Below are positions 58,635-64,000 of a DNA stretch of 64,000 nt, one piece after another. Made by a program: the position numbers and the translations under genes. Under the pieces are notes generated by a model that did not search any database, was not told the DNA's origin, and worked only from the letters and a program-made list of their open reading frames with translations. Origin of the DNA: Novosphingobium sp. (GTDB taxonomy: Bacteria > Pseudomonadota > Alphaproteobacteria > Sphingomonadales > Sphingomonadaceae); assembly GCA_024236215.1 (NCBI GenBank), contig JACKKX010000001.1, positions 186,001 through 250,000 on the forward strand, in the 5' to 3' direction. The stretch's first letter is position 1; every line of letters starts with the position of its first letter.

Positions 58635-58709
58635 TGGGGCGTCGCCAAGTGGTAAGGCACCGGTTTTTGGTACCGGCATTCGCAGGTTCGAATCCTGCCG
58701 CCCCAGCCA
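58635..58709 (+). tRNA. tRNA-Gln (anticodon TTG)
   Basis: A 75-nt gene including an encoded CCA. The acceptor arms TGGGGCG and CGCCCCA pair, the anticodon stem CCGGT/ACCGG closes a TTTTGGT loop with anticodon TTG, and the T arm GCAGGTTCGAATCCTGC is canonical. An integrase gene starts 100 nt downstream, so its 3' end is the likely attachment site of the element that follows. Confidence 0.95.
58684..58709. other. Probable attachment site (attL) at the tRNA-Gln 3' end
   Basis: The T arm, acceptor strand and CCA of the tRNA are the usual crossover site for tyrosine integrases. The integrase lies just downstream, pointing away. The other copy of the core would be beyond the right edge, so the boundary cannot be checked here. 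Confidence 0.35.
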
Positions 58710-58809
58710 TGTTTTGATCAAGACTCTGTAATATCACGTTTTTTGGAAGGCGCCGTAACCGGCGTGGGGATTTTGCTACAATCCCCTGCCCCACTGAAGG
58801 GCCAAACCA

Positions 58810-60555
58810 ATGACGTCGATACCCAACACCATCCGTCGGCGAGGGGTCTATCATCTTCGCAGGCCGGTCCCCGCTGACCTGCGCAAGGCCTTCCGTCGCA
58901 AGGAATTATCGGTAAGCTTGCGGACCAGCGATCCCGCCACTGCAAGAAATCTCTCGCGCTTTGCCTATCTCCAGTCGGATGCCCTGTTTGACACCGTGCG
59001 GTCGGACCCGATGCTAGGCCCCGACGACATCCGGGCTTTGGTCAGGGACTTCTACGAGTCGATCCTCGACCGTGACAATGCGGCGCGCCTGGCCAGTGAT
59101 GCGCCGATGCCGGAAGCCGCCCGCCAGGCCCGCATCGACCACTACGAGGAACTGGCCGAGAACTCGCGGCGTGACCTCGCCGCCAATGCGTTCGGTTCGA
59201 CGCGCTCGATCGCGATGGCGCTGCTCGCCAAGCGCTACGGCCTCGATGCCAGTTTCGACCAGGTTGACAATCGGCTGGTCATGCAGTCGCTCCTGCGTGC
59301 CGGCATCGATGTGTGCGAAGCTCTTGCCGCACGGTATCGCGGTGACTTCAGCTACCAGCCGAAGGACAAGGTTCTGGCCGAGGCGCTGGCGATGGCAGCG
59401 CTGCCCGCAGGTCCTGTTGCTGCACCGGCCGGGCCGGTCGTTGCCGATCCCGCCGTACCGTCCCGGCTGTTTTCCGAAGTTGCCGAGGAGTTTCGTGCCA
59501 AGCAGGTGCGCCAGAAGCTCTGGACCCAGCACAACTCCCAGCAGGTGCGCAAGACCTACGACATTCTGATCGAGGTACTGGGTGACCGGCAGTTGAGCGA
59601 CTATGCGCGGTCGGATGCCGGCACCCTCAAGAGCCACCTCGAAGACCTCCCGGCAAATTACGCCAAGTCGACCGACTACACCGACCTCACGACAATCCAG
59701 ATTGTCGATCAGACGCGAAACCTGACGCCGGACGAGCCCCAGATCGAACGGCTTTCGTCGCGCACGGTCCAACGGCATTTTTCGGCTCTCTCCGCGCTGT
59801 GGCGCTACGGACTGGAACGCGGCTGGGCGGCCAGGAATCCGTTCATCGATTTCAAGTTCCCGGCCCCCAAACGTGCGCGCGATCAGCGCAGCATGTGGAG
59901 CGACAGCGAACTTGCCGCCTTGTTTGACACGCCCGTCTGGCGCGGCTGCCAGTCGAAGGACCGCCGGGCCAAGCCAGGCAATCTCGTTCTGAAAGACAGC
60001 AAGTTCTGGATTCCGCTCATCGGTTTGCACTCGGGCATGCGGCTCGATGAAATCTGCGGGCTGGCTGTCGATGACGTGCGGCTGGAAGGCGGGATTCTCG
60101 TCTTTGACACGACGGACCGCACCTTGAAGACGCGCAAGTCCAGCCGGATCGTTCCGGTTCACAAGCAACTCCTCGCGTTCGGCTTCGGAGCTTACCTGGA
60201 TGAGCAGCGGTCCCGGAAAAGTGCCCTGCTCTTCCCCGAACTGAAGCCGGGTGGGCCGGACGGCAAGATGAGCGCGAACTTCACCAAGTGGTTTTCGCGC
60301 TACCGTTCCGACGTGGGCGTCTACGCCAGGAAGCGCGATTTCCACTCGTTCCGCCACAATGTGCGGACCCTGTTGGCGCAGGCCGATGTCGCCGAGCCCG
60401 TGATTGACGAGATCATGGGCCACGAAGGCAAGGGCATGGGCGCGCGCTACACGAAGGGTTTCACGATCGAGCAGCTCAAGGATGCTGTCGATGCGATTTT
60501 CCCGCCCGTCGACCTGACGTGGCTGGTCCAGCCGCAAGAGCCTGTCGAGCTTTAG
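58810..60555 (+). CDS. Tyrosine recombinase / integrase
   Basis: A 581-residue integrase. It begins with a DUF6538-like segment (IRRRGVYHLRRPVPADLRKA), followed by an arm- and core-binding region and, from about residue 360, the catalytic domain. Catalytic residues are Arg411 in LHSGMRLDEICGL, His512 and Arg515 in FHSFRHN, His538 in MGHEG and the nucleophile Tyr547 in GARYTKG. It would integrate and excise the element whose left end is the tRNA-Gln gene. The gene is full length and intact. Confidence 0.93.
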   Translation: MTSIPNTIRRRGVYHLRRPVPADLRKAFRRKELSVSLRTSDPATARNLSRFAYLQSDALFDTVRSDPMLGPDDIRALVRDFYESILDRDNAARLASDAPMPEAARQARIDHYEELAENSRRDLAANAFGSTRSIAMALLAKRYGLDASFDQVDNRLVMQSLLRAGIDVCEALAARYRGDFSYQPKDKVLAEALAMAALPAGPVAAPAGPVVADPAVPSRLFSEVAEEFRAKQVRQKLWTQHNSQQVRKTYDILIEVLGDRQLSDYARSDAGTLKSHLEDLPANYAKSTDYTDLTTIQIVDQTRNLTPDEPQIERLSSRTVQRHFSALSALWRYGLERGWAARNPFIDFKFPAPKRARDQRSMWSDSELAALFDTPVWRGCQSKDRRAKPGNLVLKDSKFWIPLIGLHSGMRLDEICGLAVDDVRLEGGILVFDTTDRTLKTRKSSRIVPVHKQLLAFGFGAYLDEQRSRKSALLFPELKPGGPDGKMSANFTKWFSRYRSDVGVYARKRDFHSFRHNVRTLLAQADVAEPVIDEIMGHEGKGMGARYTKGFTIEQLKDAVDAIFPPVDLTWLVQPQEPVEL

Positions 60556-60585
60556 CCAAGGTCGCCGATCCGCCGCCGCGTGACG

Positions 60586-60618
60586 CAACTTGCACGCAAT
60601 TCGGCCCCAACTTGCACG
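60586..60618. repeat. Two 11-bp direct repeats ahead of the DnaX-like gene
   Basis: CAACTTGCACG occurs at 60586-60596 and 60608-60618, 22 bp apart, two turns of the helix. The pair lies 72 nt ahead of the DnaX-like start and 31 nt after the integrase stop. It may be an operator or a short iteron. The rest of this gap is unremarkable, and no strong ribosome site precedes the next ATG. Confidence 0.6.
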
Positions 60619-60689
60619 TGTGACAGCCGCCAGATCGCCACGATAGCGACGCACCGCCGCCACCAGACCCTTTTTAACGTTTAATTTCA

Positions 60690-62990
60690 ATGACTTGCAA
60701 TTTACCATCGACCAGCGAGATCGAAGTCCCGGAAAACACCCCCGATTTTTTTGGACAGGAGGTTTACGCCGCAGACCGCTCCACGGACGCGGTGCTCAAC
60801 AACGACGCCGCCGCTGACGACGGGCAGTTGCACGCGCCTTCCAGCCTCTTCGAAGACGCGGACGCTCAGCCCGAAGACGACACGCCTCCGGTCAGTCCCG
60901 AACTCTTCAGGCGCAAGTACCAACCCAGGACCTTTTCCGAACTCATCGGCCAGGACCAGATCGCGACCCAACTCCGCGACTATGTGAAAAACGCGGAAAC
61001 CGGCCACCTGTTGCTTGCCGGTCCTTCCGGGTGTGGCAAATCGACTACCGCGCTGATCCTTGCCAAGGCGCTCAACTGCGAGGGTGGTGTCTCCGGCGAG
61101 GCGTGCAACGCCTGTCGAAGCTGCCGAGCGATGGATGTGCCCGACGGTCACGACGCTTACATCAAGCTCAACGGAGCCAGTTCCCAAGCGCACAAGGCAG
61201 AACTCGAGTATCTTTTCCGCGAACACTTGGCATTCCGGCCGCTGGACGGCCCCCGGCCGGTCGTCTTCATCGACGAGGCCCACGAACTCTCCAGGAACGC
61301 GCGCGACTTTCTCCTTATGGTTCTGACAGACGCGCAGGACGTAACCGTCGTGCTGGCGATGATCGACGACAGCCACCTTCCGCCGCAGTTCGTCAACCGC
61401 TTCTCGCGCATGGCGCTGACGCCGCCATCAATGCTGCACCGCCTTCAGCATGTGAAACGCATCTGTGACGGCGAGGGCATCGCTGCCGATCCCGCCGCGC
61501 TCGAACTCATCGCGGAACGGTCCTGCGACTTTCGCCACGCGGAGGTGCATCTCGCGTGCATCATGCGGGAACTGGGCCAGCGCGATCTGGACCTCGCCGT
61601 AGTGCGGGACACGCTCATCCGGCCGCAGTCGAAGCCCTACGTCGATTATCTCACGGCCCTCGCGAACGGCAATTTGCAGGACCAGATCAATGCCGTTGCC
61701 AGGGCCAGCGACAGCCCGGCGGTCAGGATGGACAAGATCCTCCGACTGCTGCTGCACTTGAAGACGGCTTACGTCGGCCCCACGCTGCTCCTTCCCGAAC
61801 GCGAGGCCGCCCTTGCTTTCGATCCGGCCACGTGCCGCGAGATTGTCGATCACCTCGCAGGCATCGCCCACAGCTTCAGCCTGTCCCTCGCAGAGCTCGT
61901 GGACCACCTGCTGGAGCACTGGTCATTCCAGCCGCACCGCGTCACCGAGGAAGTCGCCAAAGCGGCTGTCGTGCGCTGCCACGATCTCCTGGCAACCGCA
62001 CGCGATGACCGGGCGGCTCCAGTCCTGCCGAGCGAGAGCGCCTTCGCCTCGTCGCGCGGCCTTCGCAAGCCACGCATTCGGCAGCGTCTTGCGAGCATCG
62101 CGAACACGGGAACCCATCTCACCGGCCAGCAGGCATACGACATCTACGAAGCTGCCACCTTCCTGATCCAGGAACATGGCCTCTACTTCAATGCACGCCT
62201 CCTGATCCGCTTCAGCGCCCTGGGCATCAGCGACGAGAAGCAGGCCGCGTCGGCTTTCACCGATTTCTGCCGGAACCTTGCCCAACGCCTCAAGGAATGG
62301 GGCTCGCCCCTTCATCGCATTGCCCTGCTGGAGCGCACTCCAGAAGGCATCCACGGGCGGCTGGTTTTCCACCTGCCCGAACCGCTCAGACAGCAGGCCC
62401 ATGACTGGTGGAAAGTCTATCTCACGGACCGCCTGCACGGTGCCGCGACGCTTGAGGACGCCTGCGATGCCGCCGGAAGGAACGAAACCCAGCCCAAGCG
62501 CCGCACCGTGCAGCACTGGACCCTGGTGCGCGAGCTTTGGGCGGGTGTCGATCCGTCGCTGACCATCGACGGCGTTCCGCTGATCGATCGGCTGGGGGTG
62601 CCGCGCCAGTTGCAGCGGCCTGCAGGACGCATCGAAGGCCGGCGCAGGCACAACTTTTCGCAGAGCATTGGGCAGAGCGGCCAGGACCATGCTCGCGACG
62701 CGATGATGCCCCATGTTTCCGCCATCGCGGAAGGTGCCTGGGATCAGATCGCGACCGGCTGGGAATTCCTTGAGCACCGCGAACGCCAGGCCGAGCGCAA
62801 TCGACGCCAGGACATCGTTTCCACCTTGGAAGAGCGGCTGGCCTGCACGGGCGACCCGCTCGCCCGCACCGCTCTCAACCAGCAGTTCCAGGCCGAACGC
62901 CGGTCCTGGGCAGTCGATGCCCGGCATCGTCTCCGCCAGCGCGTCAGCTGGATCAATTCCACCCCCGCCCCCAACCCCTGTCAGGAGTAA
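60690..62990 (+). CDS. DnaX-like clamp-loader ATPase with unassigned C-terminal region
   Basis: A 766-residue protein. After an acidic N-terminal 70 residues, about 75-245 match the DNA polymerase III tau/gamma ATPase: YQPRTFSELIGQDQI, P-loop GPSGCGKS at 111-118, the DnaX-type zinc set C130-x8-C139-x2-C142-x2-C145, Walker B VVFIDEAHELS at 191-201 and an arginine-finger equivalent at R237 (NRF, where DnaX has SRC). A lid and collar-like helices follow to about 430. The region after 490 is not DnaX; 500-580 (HRIALLERTPEGIHGRLVFHLP) resembles a degenerate rolling-circle Rep core. Host DnaX is about 600 residues and lies elsewhere. The gene overlaps no neighbour; the next gene starts 5 nt on. Confidence 0.75.
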   Translation: MTCNLPSTSEIEVPENTPDFFGQEVYAADRSTDAVLNNDAAADDGQLHAPSSLFEDADAQPEDDTPPVSPELFRRKYQPRTFSELIGQDQIATQLRDYVKNAETGHLLLAGPSGCGKSTTALILAKALNCEGGVSGEACNACRSCRAMDVPDGHDAYIKLNGASSQAHKAELEYLFREHLAFRPLDGPRPVVFIDEAHELSRNARDFLLMVLTDAQDVTVVLAMIDDSHLPPQFVNRFSRMALTPPSMLHRLQHVKRICDGEGIAADPAALELIAERSCDFRHAEVHLACIMRELGQRDLDLAVVRDTLIRPQSKPYVDYLTALANGNLQDQINAVARASDSPAVRMDKILRLLLHLKTAYVGPTLLLPEREAALAFDPATCREIVDHLAGIAHSFSLSLAELVDHLLEHWSFQPHRVTEEVAKAAVVRCHDLLATARDDRAAPVLPSESAFASSRGLRKPRIRQRLASIANTGTHLTGQQAYDIYEAATFLIQEHGLYFNARLLIRFSALGISDEKQAASAFTDFCRNLAQRLKEWGSPLHRIALLERTPEGIHGRLVFHLPEPLRQQAHDWWKVYLTDRLHGAATLEDACDAAGRNETQPKRRTVQHWTLVRELWAGVDPSLTIDGVPLIDRLGVPRQLQRPAGRIEGRRRHNFSQSIGQSGQDHARDAMMPHVSAIAEGAWDQIATGWEFLEHRERQAERNRRQDIVSTLEERLACTGDPLARTALNQQFQAERRSWAVDARHRLRQRVSWINSTPAPNPCQE

Positions 62991-62995
62991 CGACA

Positions 62996-63937
62996 ATGGT
63001 ACAATCAATCGAAAGCAATGGTGCTGACGACACGGTCAACGCAAGCGATCCCGGCGACTTTCCCTTCGGCGAAGAGCTGATCATCGCGGCCTTGGACGCT
63101 CTGCTAGAAACGCTCACGCCGGGCCGCCATGCGCCGCCACAGATCCTTCCGAGCACTCCCGATCCCCGCCCGGTGATCTCGGTCGAAGCCGACCTTCTTC
63201 ATGACGCGGTCGTCAGCCTGTGCCTCCCGGCCTTCAAGGGCGGGGACAAGGGGGCTGCAAGCCCGATCAAGCAGCGCCTCGCTCGCCAGAAGGTTCCGCA
63301 CCTGACCCTCATCCTGAGCGCCGATTCCTTGAGACTGCGTAACGAGGCTCACCAGATTGCGGTGGAGGTCGAATTGCCGATCAAGGCGGCGACGGTAGAC
63401 GTACCGACCCAAGGGATCGCGGTAAGCGTCCCGTATCATTTCATTTCCGGTCTCTATGGCAGCCGTGGCTGCGGGCTCAAAAGGGCAATCGTACAACTGA
63501 GCTACGATGCCCAAACCGGCACTCTGCACCTGGTGGAAGGTTCCACGTGCCTCGCAATCACGGTGCAGGAGTTGCCGGAACCTCCCCGCCCCCTTGCCGA
63601 AGAAGCGATCGACGCCAAACGAGTCGATTTTGCCGCCTGCGAATATGCAAAGGCATTGAAACGTCTGAAAGGCATAACGAGCGACCAGCACGATACGACT
63701 TCCCGCACGAAATTCTGGCTTGAAGAAGGCCGTGTGCTCGTCGCGGGACATCAGCAACCGGCAGAATACCTCTCCAGCGAACTGATCGGCCTCAAGGTCT
63801 GCCTGTCTCCTGGCCAGTTTCCTACTGTGCTCTCGCTCCTGGCTCGCCTCGGCAGGAAGCAGTCCACCATGCGCAGCCACCAGAACCTGTTCCTGCTCAG
63901 CAACGAGGCATTGACCGTGATGTTCCGCGTGGTCTGA
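62996..63937 (+). CDS. Putative beta sliding clamp-like protein of the element
   Basis: A 313-residue protein. AGGAG overlaps the stop of the DnaX-like gene 8 nt ahead of this ATG, so the two are coupled. After a 55-residue acidic start, residues 58-195 follow a DnaN domain pattern: ISVEADLLHDAVVSL, TLILSADSLRLRNEA, GIAVSVPYHFISGLYG and a strand pair VQLSYDAQTGTLHLVEG. Residues 208-313 (ALKRLKGITSDQHDTTSRT, VCLSPGQFPTVLSLLARLG) may be a second and partial third domain. Host DnaN is about 370 residues with three domains, so this one is shorter. The assignment rests on pattern and on its partner gene. Confidence 0.5.
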   Translation: MVQSIESNGADDTVNASDPGDFPFGEELIIAALDALLETLTPGRHAPPQILPSTPDPRPVISVEADLLHDAVVSLCLPAFKGGDKGAASPIKQRLARQKVPHLTLILSADSLRLRNEAHQIAVEVELPIKAATVDVPTQGIAVSVPYHFISGLYGSRGCGLKRAIVQLSYDAQTGTLHLVEGSTCLAITVQELPEPPRPLAEEAIDAKRVDFAACEYAKALKRLKGITSDQHDTTSRTKFWLEEGRVLVAGHQQPAEYLSSELIGLKVCLSPGQFPTVLSLLARLGRKQSTMRSHQNLFLLSNEALTVMFRVV

Positions 63938-64000
63938 GCCCGCAGTTTCTACCAACTACGAGTAGAGCCTTGGGCCGTTTTGATGCCCTTCGCTGGGCGT

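Follow-up and report, generated by a model that had tools for sequence, protein, structure and literature searches.

A 49,613-bp integrative island at the 3′ end of a tRNA-Gln gene in Novosphingobium sp. carries a gene for a clamp-loader ATPase fused to a Rep-like domain of the HUH type, with a DnaN-like gene directly downstream. Both genes lie in a 64,000-nucleotide stretch of DNA (C1:186001-250000; "the window") from a genome of 3.08 Mb in seven contigs, and positions given without a contig are those of the window. A first-pass annotation had described the first of the two genes as a DnaX. As judged from its sequence, the product joins this ATPase to a Rep/HUH-like domain without the metal motif, which is the real novelty and points to replication. 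We propose, with a probability of about one half, that the fusion is the replication initiator of the integrative element and loads the co-encoded private clamp at the element's origin.

A clamp-loader ATPase joined to a Rep-like domain

The fusion protein (766 amino acids; 60690-62990, plus strand) has a DnaX-type AAA+ domain at about residues 71-280 (60900-61529, plus strand), with the P-loop GPSGCGKS, four cysteines, the Walker B motif VFIDEA, and an arginine-finger region. The first three of these features had been reported in the first pass and are borne out; the arginine finger is present too. The model TIGR02397 (dnaX_nterm) matches residues 73-356 (E 4e-38) with a score of 131.6 bits, below the curated cut-off of 250. 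In a motif table that includes the host DnaX, the Walker A and Walker B motifs, the four-cysteine zinc set, and the arginine finger are kept in all six fusions known to us (see below). The host DnaX is 33% identical to the fusion over residues 13-277. The fusion shares with bacterial DnaX (gamma/tau) the AAA+ domain and all of these motifs, and differs from it in the score and in a C-terminal half that holds an HUH Rep-like domain. Elsewhere the genome encodes a PF13177 protein (C2:620770) that aligns with DnaX in its motifs, and it has its own dnaN at C2:306910; a further PF13177 protein at C5:221481 is presumably holB. In the plasmid collection, the best match of this dnaN is from Sphingomonas, at 72%, as would suit a sphingomonad host. 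Because of these separate host genes, the pair in the window is neither the sole dnaX and dnaN of the genome, as it might have been, nor a misplaced ordinary host pair.

The Rep-like domain, which was missed in the first reading, occupies about residues 475-668 (62112-62693, plus strand) and was recognized by hhalign comparisons and motif tables. A two-row alignment of fusion C-termini matches eleven stand-alone HUH proteins with an hhalign score of 118.7 (probability 98.9, E 3.9e-17), and none of 200 column shuffles of that alignment reaches the real score (best, 24.4). The single rows give E values of 1.6e-11 and 6.7e-11. The two-row profile also matched stand-alone proteins of 249-307 amino acids with HxH and Tyr motifs in three genomes, with at most four candidates scored per genome. 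Three stand-alone members match the nearest Pfam family, REP_ORF2-G2P (PF23343), with E values of 2e-4 to 2e-3, below its cut-off.

In a joint alignment, the HxH metal motif is found in 17 of 18 stand-alone relatives and in none of the six fusions, and the catalytic Tyr in all 18 stand-alone relatives and in two fusions, those of genomes G1185 and G1199. The HxH position of the window's fusion reads H-G-R (62352-62360) and its catalytic-Tyr position Glu (62532-62534). The HUH family also has a C-terminal motif, GKR-x-x-x-S-x-x-[LI]-G, which survives in altered form in the fusions. The 18 stand-alone rows take in the second HUH gene of G1117, and the row H51 covers part of a longer frame; G635 and G492 are left out (stops or a break in the match), with the open 174-amino-acid part of G635 used only in the hhalign profile, and the genus-search matches of G1007, G1109 (stops inside), G077, and G1105 are left out of the counts. 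In summary, the C-terminus of the fusions is homologous to a stand-alone alphaproteobacterial family of HUH Rep proteins. Unlike these proteins, the fusions are without HxH (all six) and in four of six cases without Tyr, and are joined to a clamp-loader ATPase. We infer that the loss of HxH would have brought with it the loss of nicking.

Members of the HUH family also occur on plasmids. A frame of about 776 amino acids on Roseomonas haemaphysalidis p546-4 (L068:4765-7095) has an HUH domain with both HxH and Tyr in place, preceded by an N-terminal stretch that is transposase-like by eye. A plasmid of Sphingomonas sp. AP4-R1 has an HUH-family frame without the first His of HxH (L067:5944-6558); it is not annotated on its strand and lies just upstream of an annotated retron Ec67-type reverse transcriptase gene. 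The 4.3-kb plasmid of Sphingopyxis terrae (L066) has a family member plus an annotated RepA and a recombinase.

The fusion family and its islands

Besides the window, fusions were found in G795, G1118, G1117, G1185, and G1199, among the matches listed. These five came from a search of 195 genomes with the full-length loader and from genus searches of 61, 71, and 94 genomes (the 71 overlap the 61). At most five candidates per genome were scored in the first of these and at most 23 in the 94-genome search, and negative results are lower bounds. The fusions are 24-36% identical to each other over aligned columns, except for those of G1185 and G1199 (94%). In the full-length search, the G795 fusion is the sole full-length relative besides the window's own copy among the matches listed (31% identity to the window's loader over residues 72-749), and the other listed matches end by residue 366. 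The loader C-terminus or its profiles detected no relatives in IMG/VR or GTDB, and in 385 genomes of the class the C-terminus retrieved its own copy alone among the matches listed (at most four candidates per genome).

An integrase gene lies beside a tRNA gene in four of the six fusion loci. In three of them, the tRNA is tRNA-Gln and the integrase is of the DUF6538 type; those of G1117 and G1185, both beside tRNA-Gln(ttg), are 44.5% and 50% identical to the window's. The loader and clamp pair recurs in other genomes. Whether it does so next to integrases was a question of the first pass, and in G1185 the pair shares its stretch with the DUF6538 integrase, which is related to the window's and sits at the same tRNA-Gln. 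In the fourth locus, contig C202 of G795 begins with tRNA-Leu and an integrase of the Arm-DNA-binding type (L072:87-1556), and the fusion is on the same contig. Integrases of two distinct types have thus accompanied the module in its movements. The 13.9 kb read of G1118 and the 14 kb read of G1199 contained neither a tRNA nor anything that matched the three integrase queries. The modules of G1185 and G1199 are 97.7% identical in DNA over 5,557 bp, and the genes beyond the Cas4-like gene differ, which is consistent with recent transfer.

A recurrent set of genes shares the island or fetched stretch with the fusion: a Cas4-like gene and ArdC in all six cases, PDDEXK_13 in four, and PP2C in two. 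The Cas4-like gene is within about 10 kb of the fusion outside the window's island; within that island, the Cas4-like and ArdC genes are about 30 kb away. A 20-kb stretch of G1082 holds Cas4-like, ArdC, PP2C, and PDDEXK_13 genes and a small-ORF-A relative, but the HUH protein encoded there stands alone and has both HxH and Tyr. This arrangement suggests, without proving it, that a Rep-like protein was replaced by the fusion. Among ten other stand-alone HUH loci that we read, nine have an integrase gene (seven by Pfam, one by tblastn, and L113 by eye), which lies beside a tRNA in five of the nine.

A DnaN-like gene follows the loader

A second gene starts at 62996, 5 nucleotides past the loader's stop, as the first pass had placed it. 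It encodes a truncated DnaN-like protein of 313 amino acids (62996-63937, plus strand) with the first two of three clamp-like domains, as recognized by tblastn and profiles. We consider its DnaN-like ancestry very probable. In G1185 and G1199, the gene after the fusion is homologous to it (tblastn, E 1e-11, 22% identity) and encodes one domain more, in a frame of 558 amino acids, or 530 from an ATG 2 nucleotides after the loader's stop; if this nearest ATG is used, the gap is 2 nucleotides in both genomes. A profile of the window and G1199 proteins matches DnaN 42-359 colinearly over the three domains (E 4.4e-5, probability 69, score 42.5, 294 columns), and none of 200 column shuffles scores as high (best, 31.3). 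A three-row profile performs similarly (E 5.9e-5, 309 columns, 0 of 200 shuffles, best 24.7). When 132 open reading frames (ORFs) were scanned against DnaN, one that runs antisense to the Cas4-like gene of locus L108 scored 29.5, compared to 42.5 for the clamp pair.

The relation is significant only when the relative is added to the profile. Against a profile built from about 40 DnaN sequences, the window protein matches domain I with its residues 135-191 at 0.014 (0 of 60 shuffles; 0.0054 and 0 of 60 for the domain piece alone), and residues 208-251 match domain III at 0.018 (1 of 60 shuffles; 0.0067 and 0 of 60 for the piece alone), in colinear order. No control piece of real ORFs reaches these scores (0 of 126 per domain, 0 of 63 at full length); the domain III score of 19.0 is barely above the best real-ORF control of 18.9, which weakens the assignment. 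The order of strands and helices fits, by eye, two clamp domains. Searches of the protein against Pfam (E up to 1), NCBIfam, PADLOC, and PDB sequences (E up to 10) gave no hit, and its PHROGs values of 0.33 and 0.36 are insignificant; its halves gave at best an E of 0.13 (LTM) and 0.061 (PHROG). Single-sequence searches detected no relatives in plasmids, IMG/VR, or the GTDB short-peptide scan, and among 298 genomes of the family only its own copy. The beta-clamp pattern claimed in the first pass holds as membership in a DnaN-like family by way of the two-sequence profile, and not for the window copy taken alone, which is truncated and gives only weak signals. In short, the protein resembles the DnaN beta clamp in the colinear three-domain match of the window and G1199 pair; it differs in being too divergent for Pfam, NCBIfam, and PDB sequence matches and, in the window, in having two domains.

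The divergently transcribed 438-amino-acid neighbor of the G1118 fusion matches the window and G1199 profile with an E of 1.6e-5, a value without a shuffle control. Taken singly, it matches DnaN at 0.028 (1 of 60 shuffles above; separate domains not significant) and the window protein at 0.024, and both values weaken its reading as a clamp. Genome G347 has two copies of a 614-amino-acid protein with a match to the DnaN middle domain (L069:6153-7997 and L070:5817-7661; E 9.8e-6), in surroundings that are prophage-like by eye.

The integrative island

The tRNA-Gln gene (anticodon ttg; 58635-58709, plus strand) was called by ARAGORN and serves as the island's attachment site. Its last 18 nucleotides form the left attachment core (58692-58709, plus strand), and in the 60 kb read they have a single further exact copy, at C1:294287-294304. 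Just inside the left end is a gene for a 581-amino-acid tyrosine integrase with DUF6538 (58810-60555, plus strand; Pfam Phage_integrase, E 1.5e-14; DUF6538, E 1.8e-16). An integrase at a tRNA end and direct attachment repeats are the marks of a tRNA-borne integrative island, and we identify the segment between the tRNA-Gln 3′ end and the 18-bp direct repeat as such. The first-pass annotation was right about the integrase at the 3′ end of tRNA-Gln, about an element reaching beyond the window, and about a second attachment copy to be looked for rightwards, since the right end lies outside the window.

The cargo includes a type IIG restriction enzyme-methyltransferase and an adjoining 2015-amino-acid helicase that matches PDC-S37/Hhe models (together L005:9866-18828, minus strand; the frames overlap by 4 nucleotides). 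Genes for McrBC, a WYL regulator, ArdC, and a Cas4-like nuclease are also present, as are further tyrosine recombinases and insertion sequences.

Replication and its alternatives

The first pass had proposed a mobile element with a private loader and clamp. The element, the loader-type ATPase, and the clamp relative stand; the "DnaX" is a fusion and the clamp is truncated. We hypothesize that the C-terminal Rep/HUH domain, its metal site lost, has been retained as an origin-binding module and would hold the clamp loader at the element's origin. The analogy is with the papillomavirus and polyomavirus initiators, in which, according to passages of one source (PMC6668415), an inactivated HUH domain is the origin-binding domain and is joined to an SF3 helicase. 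These initiators resemble the fusion in that an HUH domain without its signature motifs is joined to a P-loop ATPase. They differ in that the ATPase here is a clamp loader rather than an SF3 helicase, and that a clamp is co-encoded; the likeness is one of architecture, not of demonstrated common descent. The N-terminal DnaX-type AAA+ motor, alone or with the host delta and delta′ subunits, would load the private clamp after excision, and the loaded clamp would draw a host polymerase onto the element. Origin binding, clamp loading, the identity of the recruited polymerase, and replication of the excised form are inferred here.

Several observations weigh against this proposal. In the ORF lists of the island, which were scanned in part, we noticed no polymerase, primase, helicase loader, or delta subunit. 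An iteron-like origin was sought and not found, nor was any other origin identified; the loader genes are flanked by only a few, weak repeats. The fusions of G1185 and G1199 retain Tyr at the catalytic position. The single-sequence signals of the clamp are weak (0.014 at best for the window protein alone against DnaN), no such test matched DnaN domain II, and the window's clamp, cut off by an insertion sequence behind its second domain, does not have the three domains of a full clamp. No clamp is detectable beside the G1117 fusion, and the 854-amino-acid neighbor of the G795 fusion, considered as a clamp, is not clearly one, with a weak profile signal and no match to the clamp pair. Finally, defence genes are on the same island, and a defence role fits this location equally.

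Such a role in defence or inter-element conflict is the first alternative, and we regard it as unlikely. The dead Rep domain would be a decoy or sensor for rolling-circle replicons; a foreign Rep-origin or single-stranded DNA intermediate would lead the ATPase to load the clamp, and the clamp would recruit the Cas4-like or PDDEXK_13 nuclease of the element, which would destroy the intruder. Two kinds of PD-(D/E)XK nuclease gene indeed recur on the islands, and the window's island has the type IIG enzyme and McrBC. The same nucleases, however, accompany the stand-alone, motif-intact HUH protein of G1082, and they therefore look like core genes of the island and not like the loader's partners, which weakens the defence explanation somewhat. 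In addition, PADLOC models match the fusion over short segments, most of them near the P-loop (the best is mad8, at residues 93-128 with an E of 1.6e-7).

The clamp could also be loaded not to start replication at an origin, but for second-strand synthesis or gap filling after movement or excision. A clamp and a loader are enough for such a role in repair or post-transfer synthesis, and in the ORF lists, scanned in part, we noticed no neighboring gene for a partner of the helicase-loader type. However, this explanation, which we consider improbable, accounts neither for a Rep-derived domain in all six fusions nor for the related island with a stand-alone Rep-like protein. Nothing was found in support of clamp-directed transposition targeting, another role offered in the first pass.

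An insertion sequence truncates the clamp gene

The clamp gene ends at an insertion sequence that was missed in the first reading. Its left end, at 63930-64000 of the window, is marked by the 12-bp terminal repeat TGGTCTGAGCCC, by a second copy on the island, and by a matching inverted end. The insertion spans C1:249930-254185 and closes with the inverse repeat at C1:254185. The transposase frames were assigned to IS3 by eye, and no target-site duplication was seen. An ArsP permease gene and an ISL3 transposase (Pfam ArsP_1 and DDE_Tnp_ISL3) lie on a stretch that interrupts the insertion sequence in turn; the second copy, at L006:16263-17525, is 100% identical over the aligned parts. The insertion sequence supplies the stop and the final codon of the clamp frame, as well as two bases of the codon before that. 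This boundary, together with the longer clamp of G1185 and G1199, led us to reject a natural two-domain, PCNA-like clamp in the window.

Since the third clamp domain has been lost to the insertion, the system in this genome may be impaired, or it may rely on the clamp of the host. It is conceivable, though improbable, that the locus is a decaying remnant whose loader is without a full private partner. That the frame runs into the terminal repeat and takes its stop and final bases from the insertion speaks for such decay, as does the rest of the island, on which no third domain of the G1199 type was recognized (tblastn, E 0.01). Against it, the 766-codon loader frame is open and retains all ATPase motifs; the loss may be recent, and the two-domain clamp or the host clamp may serve.

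Clamps and loaders on other mobile DNA

The first pass regarded clamp and loader genes as normally chromosomal. Private clamps turned out not to be rare: at E 1e-3, DnaN relatives are present in 556 of 72,556 plasmid records, some of which are chromosome-sized, and in 186 of 50,697 phage records, some of which are unannotated faecal contigs. The cyanobacterial plasmids pCHRO.01 and pP742402 carry dnaN, dnaX, and holA together; in loci L012 and L014, both of cyanobacterial conjugative plasmids, dnaN, dnaX, a polymerase-domain or 3′-5′ exonuclease gene, and holA are in one stretch. pCHRO.01 and pP742402 resemble the island in having a private clamp and loader on mobile DNA, and differ in that the genes are annotated as ordinary dnaN and dnaX and are on conjugative plasmids. 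On Xanthomonas hortorum CFBP8129_p211 (L086), the plasmid dnaN adjoins PRTRC-system genes. RFC-type loaders and PCNA-type clamps are described for some jumbo phage groups in passages of PMC7824862, and divergent clamp-loader subunits from the ocean in passages of PMC12153180. Among the papers listed by our searches of the open-licence PMC literature, none has a title or abstract that mentions such a fusion of clamp loader and Rep domain.

Implications for replication of integrative elements

In known initiators, DNA-binding domains, dead HUH domains included, are joined to helicase-type ATPases, and we know of no initiator that uses a clamp loader. Rather tentatively, we conjecture that the fusions may form a new class of initiator, in which a dead Rep domain would target a clamp loader to an origin, and the loading of the private clamp, in place of nicking or helicase loading, would start or capture replication; the clamp would also favor the element's access to a host polymerase. 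The related islands, on which the Rep-like protein is either separate or fused to the loader, suggest a route by which a clamp and its loader became private. If the fusion acts as we propose, it would be a natural case of clamp loading aimed at a sequence, and the pair would offer a compact loader and clamp with which to test whether clamp placement suffices to attract a replicative polymerase.

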